Shown here: one piece after another, positions 55,134 to 59,365 of the stretch | Layout of the letters: every line of letters begins with the position of its first letter | How positions within the stretch are numbered: the first letter of the stretch is position 1 | Translations under genes and position numbers: made by a program | Notes under the pieces: model-generated | Databases searched by the model: none | What the model was told of the DNA's origin: nothing | Seen by the model: only the letters and a program-made list of their open reading frames with translations | Origin: Candidatus Binatia bacterium | GTDB lineage: Bacteria; Vulcanimicrobiota; Vulcanimicrobiia; Vulcanimicrobiales; Vulcanimicrobiaceae | Direction: 5' to 3' | NCBI GenBank assembly: GCA_035541935.1 | Contig: DATKMJ010000033.1 | Span: forward strand, 46,880 to 110,879 | DNA length: 64,000 nt

Positions 55134-55913
55134 ATCAAGTTCGGGATCGCTCTAGCCGCTGCGCTCTTCATAGTGCCGCGTGCGGCTTTTGCCGACTTGC
55201 AATACCAGACGACGGGAGAGGACGTCTACCGCGTCGCGTCCGCCGGAACGATGTCGCGCGTCTCCTATGCCGGGACGGAGCGGCTGAGCGTTCGGTCGAG
55301 CGGGAAGAACCTGCGCTTCGAGGCGCGTGCCGACTACACGCGCGATGGTCCCGACGGAAAGAGCCGCGGCAACGCGGCTTTCGTTCAGGTGCTGCTCCCC
55401 AACGGCTCGTTCGAGAACCGTGACGACGGCGATCCCGATTTCCTGACGGTCCTCAACCAACCGTTCGCCGTGCGGCTCGATGCGGCGACGCTCCGCGACT
55501 TGCGGGTTCTTCACGGGAGCGTTCCGTTCTCGGCGACCTCACCGCTCGGCGGGCAGACGATCTTGCGCGGCTACCTCCGCCCGGGAACGAACGGGCCGAT
55601 CGGCGGACGCCCGACGGTTGCCGTGCGCTTCGAGGCGGACGGCCCGATGAACGGCGACCTGCCGGGCCACACGGACGCGACCGTTACGGGAACGATGCGG
55701 ATGGACGGGACCGCGTACTACGCTCTGCACGGGGCGACGCTGCTCGCGCTGACCGTGACCTTAACGCTCGACGCTCGGCTGACGCCGGGGCACGGCTCGA
55801 CGGCGATGCCCGTGACGATTATCTACCGGCGCTCGATGCGAGCGACGGCTAAAACGCCCCCACCAGTTCCACTTGCAACGGGTGGCGGAACGGCTGCTCG
55901 CGCAACTCCGTAA
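55134..55913 (+). CDS. Secreted beta-rich protein, apparent ATC start
   Basis: About 259 residues if read from ATC 55134. The codons from there encode a textbook signal peptide (IKFGIALAAALFIVPRAAFA) that would be cut in half by the first conventional start (GTG 55173). A GGAG ribosome site lies six bases before the ATC, and an in-frame TGA at 55116 closes the frame before it. The mature part is all beta: YAGTERLSVRSSGKNLRFEA, PNGSFENRDDGDPDFL and TVTGTMRMDGTAYYALHG. No family was recognised. The last 65 bp overlap the convergent gene. Confidence 0.65.
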   Translation: MKFGIALAAALFIVPRAAFADLQYQTTGEDVYRVASAGTMSRVSYAGTERLSVRSSGKNLRFEARADYTRDGPDGKSRGNAAFVQVLLPNGSFENRDDGDPDFLTVLNQPFAVRLDAATLRDLRVLHGSVPFSATSPLGGQTILRGYLRPGTNGPIGGRPTVAVRFEADGPMNGDLPGHTDATVTGTMRMDGTAYYALHGATLLALTVTLTLDARLTPGHGSTAMPVTIIYRRSMRATAKTPPPVPLATGGGTAARATP

Positions 55914-56241
55914 GCGGGGTGAAGGCGAGGTGGTTCTGATGGCAGTCGATCAGCATCTCGATTCCGCGCTTCACGCACCCCGTCTCCTCGACGTACTTTG
56001 CGAGCTTCCTCTTGAAGTACGCCCGGGGGTCGCGTAAGACTTTCGCGTAGTAGGGGTCGTCCGTCAGGCCGGCGGGATCGACGCCCTCTTTCGGGACGAG
56101 CCAAACGAACCACGGATCTTCGCTCTGACGGTAGCCGATGAGCACGAGCGGGAGCGCTCGCGACGAGTGGATATCCGGCAGAAAACTGCACATCGTGTAG
56201 GCATCCAGCGAAATCTCCGTGGGCTCGATGGCTTGCTGCAT
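55849..56241 (-). CDS. Hypothetical protein
   Basis: A 130-residue soluble protein starting at ATG 56241 behind a GAGG ribosome site. It has ISLDAYTMCSFLPDIHSSRA, SEDPWFVWLVPKEGVDPAGL and KRKLAKYVEETGCVKRGIEM. Three Cys and several Trp give it a folded-enzyme look, but no family was recognised. The frame is open further 5' across a hairpin-rich non-coding stretch; that part is not coding in style. Confidence 0.55.
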   Translation of the reverse strand: MQQAIEPTEISLDAYTMCSFLPDIHSSRALPLVLIGYRQSEDPWFVWLVPKEGVDPAGLTDDPYYAKVLRDPRAYFKRKLAKYVEETGCVKRGIEMLIDCHQNHLAFTPLTELREQPFRHPLQVELVGAF

Positions 56242-56278
56242 TAACGCACCTCTGTAGTCGGCTCGCAGGCGTAAACAA

Positions 56279-56310
56279 AAACCGCTTGCTCGTTGAGAGC
56301 GAAGCGGTTT
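56279..56310. other. Inverted repeat in the gap before the sigma-factor operon
   Basis: AAACCGCTT (56279-56287) pairs with AAGCGGTTT (56302-56310), with further pairing in the loop. It sits between the divergent hypothetical gene and the ECF sigma gene, in a GC-rich gap that has several other hairpins up to 56420. It may be a terminator or part of a structured leader; no T tract decides it. Confidence 0.35.
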
Positions 56311-56434
56311 GACTCTAACCAGTTCCGGGGCGGCGCCCCACCGAAAGCGGCATGGCGTTCCTTTAGGAGCACCGCGCCAAACCCCTTTCGACTGGCCGCT
56401 GCGCGGCCGCTCAGGAGTTTTCCGGCGCGGGCGT

Positions 56435-56462
56435 GAAACCACAACCCTAGTGGAGGCGGTCC
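56435..56462 (+). promoter_or_regulatory. Candidate ECF-type autoregulatory promoter
   Basis: GAAACC (56435-56440) and CGGTCC (56457-56462) are 16 bp apart, close to the GGAACC-N16-CGTC layout that many ECF sigma factors recognise at their own promoter. It lies 10 bp before ATG 56473 and 46 bp before the alternative GTG 56509. The call is by pattern only. Confidence 0.4.
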
Positions 56463-56472
56463 GGGGCACTGT

Positions 56473-57141
56473 ATGAGCGCGCTCGCACCACTCCTTACGG
56501 GAGTACACGTGCCAACAGCGATGACGCCGGGACGGACGGCTCCAGTGCCGCCCCCGAGCGATTCCGCTCCGAGCGCGGAGAGGTTCGAGAGGATCGTCGA
56601 CGACTACCAGCGGCGCCTCTACGGCTTTGCTCTGCGCATGACGGGCAATCGCGAGGACGCCGAGGAGATCGTCCAGGATGCGTTCGTGCGCGCCTATCGC
56701 GCCCTCGGAAAGATGTCACCCGAGCAGCGAGCCGACCTCCGGCTTCAGCCCTGGCTCTACACGATCACCCTGAACGTCACGCGCAACCGGCTGCGGAGCA
56801 AGCGGCCGTCGAACGTGGCGCTCGACGCGCTCGCCGATCCCGACGCCATTCTCCGCGAGTCGAACGAGGGACCGCCGCAACCCGAGGCGATCGTCGAGCA
56901 GAACACCGAGATCGCGCTCGTCGAGCGCGCCCTCTTGCAGCTGCCGATGCATCTGCGCGCGGCGGCGACCCTTCGATTCATCGAAGGGCGCAGCCATCCC
57001 GAGATCGCCGAGATCCTCAATCAGCCGATCGGCACCGTTAAATCTCACGTCCACCGGGCCGTGCGGATTCTACGCCGCATACTCGGTCCCCAGATCGGAC
57101 GATTTGCCCCCGAAGGAGTCCCCGCACATGCGTTGTCGTGA
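56473..57141 (+). CDS. ECF (RpoE-like) RNA polymerase sigma factor
   Basis: A 222-residue sigma factor (210 residues if it starts at GTG 56509, which has a GGGAG site five bases before it). Sigma2 is in LYGFALRMTGNREDAEEIVQ and QPWLYTITLNVTRNRLRSK; sigma4 is in HLRAAATLRFIEGRSHPEIA and GTVKSHVHRAVRILRR. No regulatory extension is seen beyond a Pro-rich head. Its last 14 bp overlap the anti-sigma/alkyltransferase fusion, the usual arrangement of an ECF factor with its cognate anti-sigma. It may direct its own operon from the promoter just upstream. Confidence 0.95.
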   Translation: MSALAPLLTGVHVPTAMTPGRTAPVPPPSDSAPSAERFERIVDDYQRRLYGFALRMTGNREDAEEIVQDAFVRAYRALGKMSPEQRADLRLQPWLYTITLNVTRNRLRSKRPSNVALDALADPDAILRESNEGPPQPEAIVEQNTEIALVERALLQLPMHLRAAATLRFIEGRSHPEIAEILNQPIGTVKSHVHRAVRILRRILGPQIGRFAPEGVPAHALS

Positions 57142-57859
57142 CGTAGAGGCGCTGTGGGACGATCTGCGCGGCGAGTGTCAAGCCTCGCTCAAGCAGACCG
57201 TCAGCACTCATCTGCGCGCCTGCCCCTCGTGTCAGGAGATGTTTGAAGAGTACGAAGGCGTCGCCTACTGCCTCTCGTGCCTGCCGCCGCCCGAGCCCTC
57301 GTGCGACTTGGCAAAGAAGGTCGTGCAGCACATCGCCGCACTCAAAGGCAAGGTCTATCCGCCAATCGTCCTCTCCGCTGTGACGACGCCGGTGGGTCGC
57401 CTCTACGTCGGCTTTAAATCGAATCGCATCGCGTATCTCAGCCTCGATACGGGCGAGTCGCCCGACGAGGTGATGCAACGCGCGCAGCGCCGGCTGCACC
57501 GTCCGGTAGTGCTCGGTGAGGCGCCGCACTGGCTGACCGGCATGCTCGAGCGCTTCTTTAGCACGTGGACCGTCGACGATGCCGTCGTAGACATCAGCGA
57601 CCTGACGCCGTTCGAGCAGGCCGCGCTGCGAGCCGCGGCGCGCATCCCGCCCGGCGAGGTGCGTTCCTACGCATGGGTCGCGACGCAGATCGGCCGCCCG
57701 AAAGCGGCGCGTGCGGTCGGCCGCGTGATGGCCCGCAATCCGCTGCCGCTGCTCTTTCCCTGCCACCGCGTCGTCGACTCGTCCGGCGATCTGCACAACT
57801 ATTTCTACGGTCTCGAGATGAAAGCTCGCCTACTTGAAATGGAGGGCTACCGGGGCTAG
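57128..57859 (+). CDS. Anti-sigma zinc-finger (ZAS) fused to O6-alkylguanine-DNA alkyltransferase
   Basis: A 243-residue fusion. Residues 1 to about 45 form a zinc-binding anti-sigma (zf-HC2) domain: Cys3, then His28-x3-Cys32-x2-Cys35 in STHLRACPSCQEMFEEY. After a linker with further Cys48, Cys51 and Cys59, residues about 80-243 are a complete MGMT/Ogt: TTPVGRLYVGF, IPPGEVRSYAWVA, the Arg finger in RAVGRVMARNPLP, the active site FPCHRVV (Cys212), and the NYFYGLEMKARLLEME ending. MGMT takes the alkyl group from O6-alkylguanine irreversibly onto this Cys. It lies just after its probable sigma partner. ATG 57128 follows an AAGGAG site. Nothing suggests a frameshift joining two genes. Confidence 0.9.
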   Translation: MRCRDVEALWDDLRGECQASLKQTVSTHLRACPSCQEMFEEYEGVAYCLSCLPPPEPSCDLAKKVVQHIAALKGKVYPPIVLSAVTTPVGRLYVGFKSNRIAYLSLDTGESPDEVMQRAQRRLHRPVVLGEAPHWLTGMLERFFSTWTVDDAVVDISDLTPFEQAALRAAARIPPGEVRSYAWVATQIGRPKAARAVGRVMARNPLPLLFPCHRVVDSSGDLHNYFYGLEMKARLLEMEGYRG

Positions 57860-57877: not shown

Positions 57878-59365
57878 GTGGATCCTCGGATCGCGGCCAT
57901 TCCTGACGTTCACGGCCACGCGAAGGGCGAACACCGTCCCTACACTGAGGAGCGACCGATTGCGTATTCTGCGCGGATGCTCTTCCTTTGGTTTTTCCAT
58001 GCCTGCCGGCGCGAATCGCCGCGCTTCTTGATGGTCGCCGACCACGCCAACTACCTGACGTTCGAAGACCCCGGCGCCGTGAACACGGTTCGCCGCGCCT
58101 TGAAACTGGCACAGGCCGGCGACCTGCTCGGCGCGGCCGAGACCGCGAGCGTCGATATCGCGCACGCGGCGGTCGTCTCCGAGGGGCTGCGGCGCGGCAT
58201 GCGCTTCTCGATCGGCGCCGAGATAGATAACGATCCGCGCGCGCGTCCCGACGCGCAGAACATCGTCGACGCGATGCGACCCGACGGTATCATTCGTTCC
58301 GTCCACTTCGTTCCGATCCAGCACCCGGAGAAGGGAGCCGATTGGCTCTGGCCGTTCGACAACGAGGAGTTCAGCAGTCTCCACGACGTCGTCGGAACCG
58401 AGAAGCTCTGGGAGCTCTACATGGCCAGGTTGCTCGACGACCTCGAGAAGCTGCCGGGACATATCGTCGGGCACTTCTACGTGCCCGCGACGTTCGGCAA
58501 GTGGCCCGTCCAAAAGAAACTCGAAGAGCACGAAGACCGCATGCTCGACGTCGCGCATCGCCGCGGGCTCGCCGTCGAGGTCAACACGCGCTTCCTCTAC
58601 CGCGACCACCCGGAAGATCGCAAGAAGAAATATCTCGAAGCGAACGCGCGGCTCGTCCGCAAAGCGAAGGCCCGCGGCGTCGGCATCGCGATCGGTTCGG
58701 ACGCGCACAGCCCGAAGGATCAGGGACACGCGTTCGACCTCGTGCTCAAGATGCTCGACGACGCCCGCATCAACGAGGTCGTCTTTCCGGTCGGCGGACG
58801 TCTGGCGCGGGTCGCGCTGCGCGCCACCCGCGAACATCTCGAAGCGCAGGCAAAGGCTCGCCGAACGACGGCAGCGCCGGGGAGCAGCATTACGGGCTAC
58901 AGCCGAGCCGAGCTCGGCCTTCCCGAAGAGGCCGAGGCCGCGCGCCGCGCGCGCGTTCTGGGCCCGAAGAAGCGCACGACCGCAAGCACGTCGCGGCGGG
59001 GCGCCGACTCGTCGCCGGCGGGCAAGGCGAAGGGCGCTGCCCGCGGCGCAAAGCCCGCCCCTTCGCCGAAAAAGAAGAGCCCCGCGAGCCGCCCCGCGCC
59101 CCCGAAGAAGCGCCTGGCCAGCCCGAAGCCCGCTCCAAAGGCGAAGAAGCCCGCTCCGCCGGCCAAGAAGGCCGCGGTGAAAAAACCCGCCGCCCGCAAG
59201 CCTGCGCCGAAGAAGCCGGCCAAGAAGACCCCGGCAAAGAAAGCCCCGGCCAAAAAAGCGCCGGCCCGCGCCCTTCGCAAGATGAATCCGCAGAAGGCGG
59301 CGCCCGCGAAGAAGAGCGCCAAGAAGAGCGTCAAAAAGAAAAAGCCCGCGGCCAAGCGCCGCTAG
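57878..59365 (+). CDS. PHP-domain phosphoesterase with histone-H1-like lysine-rich tail
   Basis: A 495-residue protein, GTG 57878, 18 bp after the fusion gene. The PHP metal ligands are all visible: His12 and His14 (VHGH), Asp55-His56 (VADHANY), Glu115 (GAEIDND), His143, His199 and Asp275-His277 (SDAHSPKD). PHP domains hydrolyse phosphoesters, including proofreading in some DNA polymerases and repair in PolX. From about residue 355 the protein is a 140-residue tail of KKPAP/AKKAP repeats like histone H1 or Hc1, which should bind DNA. The tail suggests a nucleic acid or nucleoid-bound substrate, and the operon suggests alkylation stress. No known PHP protein combines these features to my knowledge. 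Confidence 0.85.
   Translation: MDPRIAAIPDVHGHAKGEHRPYTEERPIAYSARMLFLWFFHACRRESPRFLMVADHANYLTFEDPGAVNTVRRALKLAQAGDLLGAAETASVDIAHAAVVSEGLRRGMRFSIGAEIDNDPRARPDAQNIVDAMRPDGIIRSVHFVPIQHPEKGADWLWPFDNEEFSSLHDVVGTEKLWELYMARLLDDLEKLPGHIVGHFYVPATFGKWPVQKKLEEHEDRMLDVAHRRGLAVEVNTRFLYRDHPEDRKKKYLEANARLVRKAKARGVGIAIGSDAHSPKDQGHAFDLVLKMLDDARINEVVFPVGGRLARVALRATREHLEAQAKARRTTAAPGSSITGYSRAELGLPEEAEAARRARVLGPKKRTTASTSRRGADSSPAGKAKGAARGAKPAPSPKKKSPASRPAPPKKRLASPKPAPKAKKPAPPAKKAAVKKPAARKPAPKKPAKKTPAKKAPAKKAPARALRKMNPQKAAPAKKSAKKSVKKKKPAAKRR

Follow-up and report, generated by a model that had tools for sequence, protein, structure and literature searches.

The window analysed here is a stretch of 64,000 nucleotides (nt) from Candidatus Binatia bacterium (assembly GCA_035541935.1, contig DATKMJ010000033.1, positions 46,880 to 110,879 of the forward strand). 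It holds a gene, found in uncultured Eremiobacterota, whose product carries a CHCC zinc anti-sigma (ZAS) module at its N-terminus and a complete O6-methylguanine-DNA methyltransferase (MGMT) behind it, and which overlaps the gene of an extracytoplasmic function (ECF) sigma factor. The features of this pair are:

57128 to 57859, forward strand: ZAS-MGMT fusion, predicted anti-sigma factor, 243 amino acids (aa)
57128 to 57352, forward strand: CHCC-type zinc anti-sigma-like module, residues 1-75 of the fusion, recognised by a profile match to RsiW and residue conservation, with helices predicted at low confidence
57359 to 57853, forward strand: complete MGMT, residues 78-242 of the fusion
57761 to 57763, forward strand: codon of the predicted alkyl acceptor Cys212, a cysteine in 326/326 distinct homologues
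56509 to 57141, forward strand: ECF sigma factor (Sigma70_r2 and r4), reading frame open from ATG 56473, likely start GTG 56509

The fusion is encoded by a single open reading frame (ORF) that starts with ATG, and its first 14 nt are shared with the sigma gene, which ends at 57141. The sigma factor matches Sigma70_r2 (E 1e-16) and Sigma70_r4_2 (E 6.5e-14) of Pfam as well as TIGR02937 (97.1 bits). An earlier note on this DNA had described an intact ZAS motif and a complete MGMT in one frame overlapping an ECF gene, and each part of this description holds: Cys3 and His28-x3-Cys32-x2-Cys35 lie where they had been placed, as do Tyr181, Arg195, and a PCHRV acceptor motif containing Cys212.

The fusion was sought in 149 genomes of the phylum, 103 from two families of one order (f1 and f2) and 46 from elsewhere. 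It is present at full length in 93 of the 103, whereas five genomes give partial matches (G045, G064, G070, G090, G127) and five give none (G049, G063, G068, G114, G123); all ten fall below 90% completeness. No fusion was found in the remaining 46 genomes, where the best match has an E value of 4.6e-23, and the sister family f3 has only MGMTs without the zinc module. Sigma matches at E values up to 1e-30 occur in 92 of 147 genomes. The earlier note had proposed examining adjacency to an ECF gene and the possible splitting of the fusion in relatives. The same ECF gene lies directly upstream in 95 of 95 examined loci (93 full length and two cut by a contig end, with the C-terminal fragments of four genomes outside this set), and relatives split into two genes that do not co-occur were not seen among them. 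The two genes overlap by 14 nt in 77 of 93 loci, with values from +11 to -8 nt in the others. Because the fusion is full length in 93 of the 103 genomes and the same sigma gene precedes it in every examined locus, it is, judged by this distribution, genuine and not an artefact. Beyond Eremiobacterota, a contig scan with a single protein, which reached close relatives only, showed no fusion; its 16 loci comprise 15 titled Eremiobacterota or Eremiobacteria and one titled 'bacterium'. No single place in any of 399 matching plasmid records covers 80% of the query. The protein searches returned the best 120 matches, so a remote fusion could escape them. Three close proteins carry other names (Babeliales P0033, Acidoferrales P0102, Dormibacteraeota P0126) and are perhaps from misnamed bins.

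The first part of the fusion agrees with class I ZAS domains in several respects. These are defined by HxxxCxxC and a fourth Cys or His ligand 23-26 residues upstream (excerpt of PMC4960319); in the fusion Cys3 lies 25 residues ahead of His28, and all four ligands are kept in 93/93 loci. Across 326 distinct homologues the only departures from the ligand set are H28Q (P0023) and three proteins with short N-termini (P0127, P0186, P0215), and zinc ligands and catalytic residues alike persist down to about 45% identity. Its position directly downstream of an ECF gene is likewise that of a ZAS gene. Searched against the PDB, a profile of the first 77 residues (30 homologues) matches RsiW best (E 2.3e-4), followed by chain 3hug_B (E 0.022). 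The latter corresponds to RslA, although its PDB entry is titled 'probable conserved membrane protein', and both top matches are anti-sigma factors. A structure model, of low confidence here, predicts helices at 3-15, 21-31, 33-41, 43-50, and 59-72, the order expected of a ZAS three-helix bundle with a fourth helix. Within the last of these lies His68 (57329-57331), which is outside the four-ligand set and is invariant in 326/326 distinct homologues. A PDB-linked table lists no anti-sigma structure, but its rows span residues 76-243 only and are uninformative on the zinc module. On the simplest reading, the ZAS would mark the fusion protein as an anti-sigma factor.

A stable partnership of any kind would agree with translational coupling and strict co-occurrence. 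It could be one without inhibition, in which the zinc module anchors the repair enzyme on the sigma factor or RNA polymerase so that transcribed DNA is repaired. We regard such recruitment as very improbable. A sigma factor would be an odd tether; sigma factors depart soon after initiation. Moreover, the zinc module resembles RsiW, an inhibitor of its sigma factor (excerpt of PMC4960319).

Cysteines other than the ligands are variable among the 326 distinct homologues: Cys48 is kept in 298, Cys51 in 278, Cys59 in 179, and Cys17 in 155. Cys48, Cys51, and Cys59 had been suggested as switch residues, and this proposal is rejected for their incomplete conservation. The frequency of Cys48 and Cys51, together with the invariance in complete copies of Cys3, the ligand that makes the ZAS of RsrA redox-responsive (excerpt of PMC4960319), fits a different arrangement, in which a redox or electrophile sensor carries a repair enzyme along. 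Here the CHCC module would, as in RsrA, sense disulfide stress, or else direct alkylation of its zinc-bound thiolates, with the MGMT no more than a repair enzyme made alongside. This is the main rival explanation, although we consider it unlikely: mere co-expression in an overlapping operon would need no fusion, and a further argument comes from the related operons described below.

The second part of the fusion is a full alkyltransferase by its residues. The Pfam profile DNA_binding_1 matches with E 4.3e-29 and 100.6 bits (cut-off 27), and the catalytic Cys-His-Glu, Tyr, and Asn are present with both domains of the fold; alkyl transfer activity is predicted. Invariant in the 326 distinct homologues are Tyr181, Asn204, Pro205, Cys212, His213, Arg214, Lys232, and Glu239, and Arg195 is kept in 325. 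That Tyr181, Arg195, and Asn204 are conserved like Cys212 would also suit a sensor in which the protein binds its sigma factor in competition with the binding of alkylated DNA by the MGMT part, and Cys212 serves for repair alone. Lesion binding as the signal is nonetheless improbable in our view, as Cys212, His213, and Glu239 are invariant while a pure binding sensor could drop the cysteine; alkyltransferase-like proteins do lose it. Tyr227, present in 317/326 distinct homologues, aligns with Trp160 of Ada, a correspondence mapped through an alignment using human numbering. Since Trp160 narrows the pocket of Ada and blocks bulky alkyl groups (excerpt of PMC10779285), and Tyr227 fills its position, a methyl preference is predicted for the fusion. 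Two further proteins are of note. At L097 (G000:C68:56318) an MGMT-like protein has PAHRVV in place of PCHRV, as in alkyltransferase-like proteins, and at L096 (G000:C18:84994) an AraC-type helix-turn-helix is fused to an MGMT, with the Ada zinc domain unmatched.

Two further features precede the sigma gene:

56434 to 56461, forward strand: predicted autoregulatory ECF-type promoter, TGAAACC-N17-GGTC (C33:103313-103340 in genome coordinates)
56499 to 56504, forward strand: likely Shine-Dalgarno sequence GGGAGT of the sigma gene; GGAG...GTG recurs by eye in many upstream regions

GTG 56509, with GGGAGT ahead of it, is more likely to be the sigma start than ATG 56473. The pattern GAAAC-Y-N15-18-G[GT]T occurs in 75 of 91 upstream regions. 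When the five letters of its -35 part were arranged in 19 other orders, 18 orders gave counts of 0-1 and CGAAA gave 14, a count that can reflect the same sites where C precedes GAAAC. Autoregulation of the operon is therefore likely as predicted from this conservation. Across the genome, the strict motif TGAAACYN{17,18}GGTY has three sites, that of the operon among them, against one for a backward control, and a relaxed motif has 22 against 11. The 21 relaxed sites that could be tabulated (L176 gave none), with the operon's own site among them, all lie under a frame of at least 100 aa on one or the other strand, so that this reading-frame test cannot tell promoters from chance. Eight relaxed sites besides that of the operon have a frame start within 250 nt (L171 inspected).

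The sequences show a fusion conserved across the order and coupled to the sigma gene, zinc ligands that hardly vary, alkyltransferase residues that never do, and conservation of a promoter-like sequence. On the reading we favour, with moderate confidence, ZAS-MGMT probably holds the sigma factor of the overlapping gene inactive until transfer of an alkyl group onto Cys212 would release it. The zinc module and its last helix would bind the sigma factor in the manner of class I anti-sigma domains, which grip sigma regions 2 and 4 (excerpt of PMC7406223). The MGMT part would accept an alkyl group from DNA once and irreversibly, and this would open or destabilise the protein and free the sigma factor. 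Reports that MGMTs are destabilised and lose interdomain contacts upon alkylation (excerpt of PMC10779285) offer such a release step. The freed sigma factor would then transcribe its own operon from TGAAACC-N17-GGTC, yielding new sensor and enzyme, until unreacted protein recaptures it. In this way the spent repair enzyme would call for its own replacement.

A second operon type bears on the nature of this signal. Among the regions examined, 14 genomes of the order have a related ECF gene followed by an MGMT gene with another architecture:

L109-L117 and L119-L123, in genomes G029, G030, G031, G058, G076, G078, G119, G120, G122, G123, G124, G126, G127, and G129: second-type loci

The sigma frame of L117 has an internal stop. 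Four of these MGMTs were scanned and show a C-terminal Ada_Zn_binding domain (E 9.3e-11, 5.6e-9, 4.7e-15, and 0.0019, the last below the cut-off) and no ZAS match, while in the remaining ones the Ada cysteine pattern is visible by eye. The order of domains is the reverse of that in E. coli Ada. Adjoining genes of Rubrobacter radiotolerans and of Nonomuraea gerenzanensis are among the best plasmid matches of the fusion's MGMT and sigma factor, and a Streptomyces plasmid has the same ECF and MGMT pair; all three actinomycetotal proteins are MGMT-AdaZn by sequence. Among 122 MGMT-AdaZn proteins (that of Rubrobacter, its best 120 matches, and that of Streptomyces), PCHR and CxxxC..CxxC are present in 122 and HxxxCxxC near the start in none, whereas fusion-type proteins have HxxxCxxC in 238/240 and the Ada CxxxC..CxxC in 0/240.

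A sigma tree of 43 rows unites 33 of them, drawn from the fusion type, the second type, and the three Actinomycetota, in one clade (support 99/95), although its long branches, above all that of Rubrobacter, call for caution. Outside it fall SigW and nine further ECFs, four of plasmids and five of the genome that holds the window; L117 and seven of 13 own-genome ECF loci, which had no match to the query, were left out. In the MGMT tree the fusion type, the second type, Actinomycetota, and f3 are joined at only 87/80. Upstream of the second-type and actinomycetotal operons, mostly tG[A/C/T]AAC with a CGTGTT or GGTGTT element can be read by eye, and no such element is legible in this way at L112 and L114. 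Because the related sigma operons swap the ZAS for an Ada zinc domain and keep the MGMT, alkylation damage is likely the signal common to the sigma clade. The same operons speak against the redox sensor considered above, as they lack a ZAS yet retain the MGMT and carry the Ada alkylation-sensor domain, although redox and alkylation inputs could act together. A wider version of the release model is about evenly balanced in our estimation. Suicide repair would free the sigma factor from ZAS-MGMT, and the whole ECF clade of Eremiobacterota and Actinomycetota, possibly with ECF122, would be dedicated to alkylation, with the zinc module varying by branch on the same alkyltransferase core. In L116 and L119-L123, a conserved ORF of 50-58 aa lies between promoter and sigma gene, approximately 75-250 nt before the sigma core. 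It has one hydrophobic stretch, ends in WND(E/D)xERRxLRxR...W, and is possibly a small membrane regulator.

Several observations weigh against release of the sigma factor by alkylation. The zf-HC2 profile (PF13490) matches the fusion with E 0.0022 and 18.5 bits, below the gathering cut-off of 22.2, and the protein is not filed as a zf-HC2 member of Pfam; at E values up to 0.1 the profile matches 33 of 64 aligned proteins (four of the 64 being MGMT-AdaZn). Structure modelling of the zinc module yields low confidence, with blocks of predicted local distance difference test (pLDDT) score at only 38-68 in the full model and a mean of 53 when modelled alone. Furthermore, the CHCC ligand set lets RsrA sense disulfide stress (excerpt of PMC4960319), and the zinc module alone could therefore be the sensor. 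L118 (G052:C85) has a sigma relative of the clade, 57% identical, with a UspA-like ORF (by eye) behind it instead of an MGMT, and the sigma relative of L124 has little downstream sequence left on its contig. In the MGMT tree, the second type is joined by four free-standing f3 MGMTs whose loci show no sigma match. MGMT-AdaZn proteins lack a ZAS, and any anti-sigma action of theirs would require binding through another part; a last helix common to both architectures was considered and rejected (hhalign probability 2.3%, not significant). Finally, 16 of the 91 upstream regions, including 12 from L068-L083, lack the promoter motif, and the strict and relaxed motif scans of the genome established no second promoter target.

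Compared with known systems, the fusion shares with RsrA, ChrR, RslA, and RsiW the HxxxCxxC motif, a fourth ligand placed 25 residues ahead of the His, and a gene directly behind an ECF gene, and its CHCC set is that of RsrA. It differs from these class I ZAS proteins in that the added domain is a predicted single-use DNA repair alkyltransferase. Ada is the textbook repair protein that reports its own reaction. With Ada of E. coli the fusion has in common an MGMT domain with an alkyl-acceptor cysteine and Tyr227 at the position of Trp160; its Pfam matches include neither Ada_Zn_binding nor an AraC-type helix-turn-helix, and it would act through a sigma factor. That the fusion works like Ada follows only by inference. 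A ZAS with an additional sensor domain has a precedent in ChrR, whose domain is cupin-like (excerpt of PMC4960319). The operons of Rubrobacter, Nonomuraea, Streptomyces, and some Eremiobacterota resemble that of the fusion in their related sigma factor, MGMT core, coupled or abutting genes, and, by eye, a similar promoter, but have the C-terminal Ada zinc domain and no ZAS.

The link between ECF sigma factors and MGMT is already recorded. In a review, the group ECF122, represented by a protein of Cellulomonas sp. Root930 (WP_057211282.1), has a conserved neighbour encoding 6-O-methylguanine DNA methyltransferase, no cognate anti-sigma factor, and an unknown mechanism (excerpt of PMC8999054). 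It shares with the present system the ECF gene and conserved MGMT neighbour and differs in being reported without an anti-sigma factor, a likeness drawn from its description only. The excerpt makes no mention of a fusion between ZAS and MGMT or of an anti-sigma role, and literature searched by title and abstract opening pointed neither to such a fusion nor to the architecture with an Ada domain or a release of the sigma factor by alkylation. The earlier statement that no described example of this fusion was known is tempered by the record of paired ECF and MGMT genes. Its proposed alkylation-responsive anti-sigma factor gains from the order-wide fusion, intact catalytic residues, ECF coupling, and Ada-zinc relatives, and loses the switch role of Cys48, Cys51, and Cys59. 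If correct, the model would wire the logic of Ada to a sigma factor and solve the supply of a single-use enzyme, provide a testable mechanism for ECF groups that lie beside MGMT genes and have no known regulator, and offer a single-use alkylation switch for laboratory use.

One gene behind the fusion may belong to the same operon:

57878 to 59365, forward strand: PHP-domain protein, possible operon member, 18 nt behind the fusion, with a match below the Pfam cut-off

Of the 91 loci that offer at least 500 nt of downstream sequence, 88 have a PHP gene behind the fusion in the same orientation, at gaps of 18-1682 nt; it may be an output of the operon, or its position may reflect nothing more than synteny. 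On the other side of the sigma gene, a divergent gene at 55849-56241 (reverse strand) is 54-92% identical in many loci; a longer ORF at 55849-56508 has no Pfam match.
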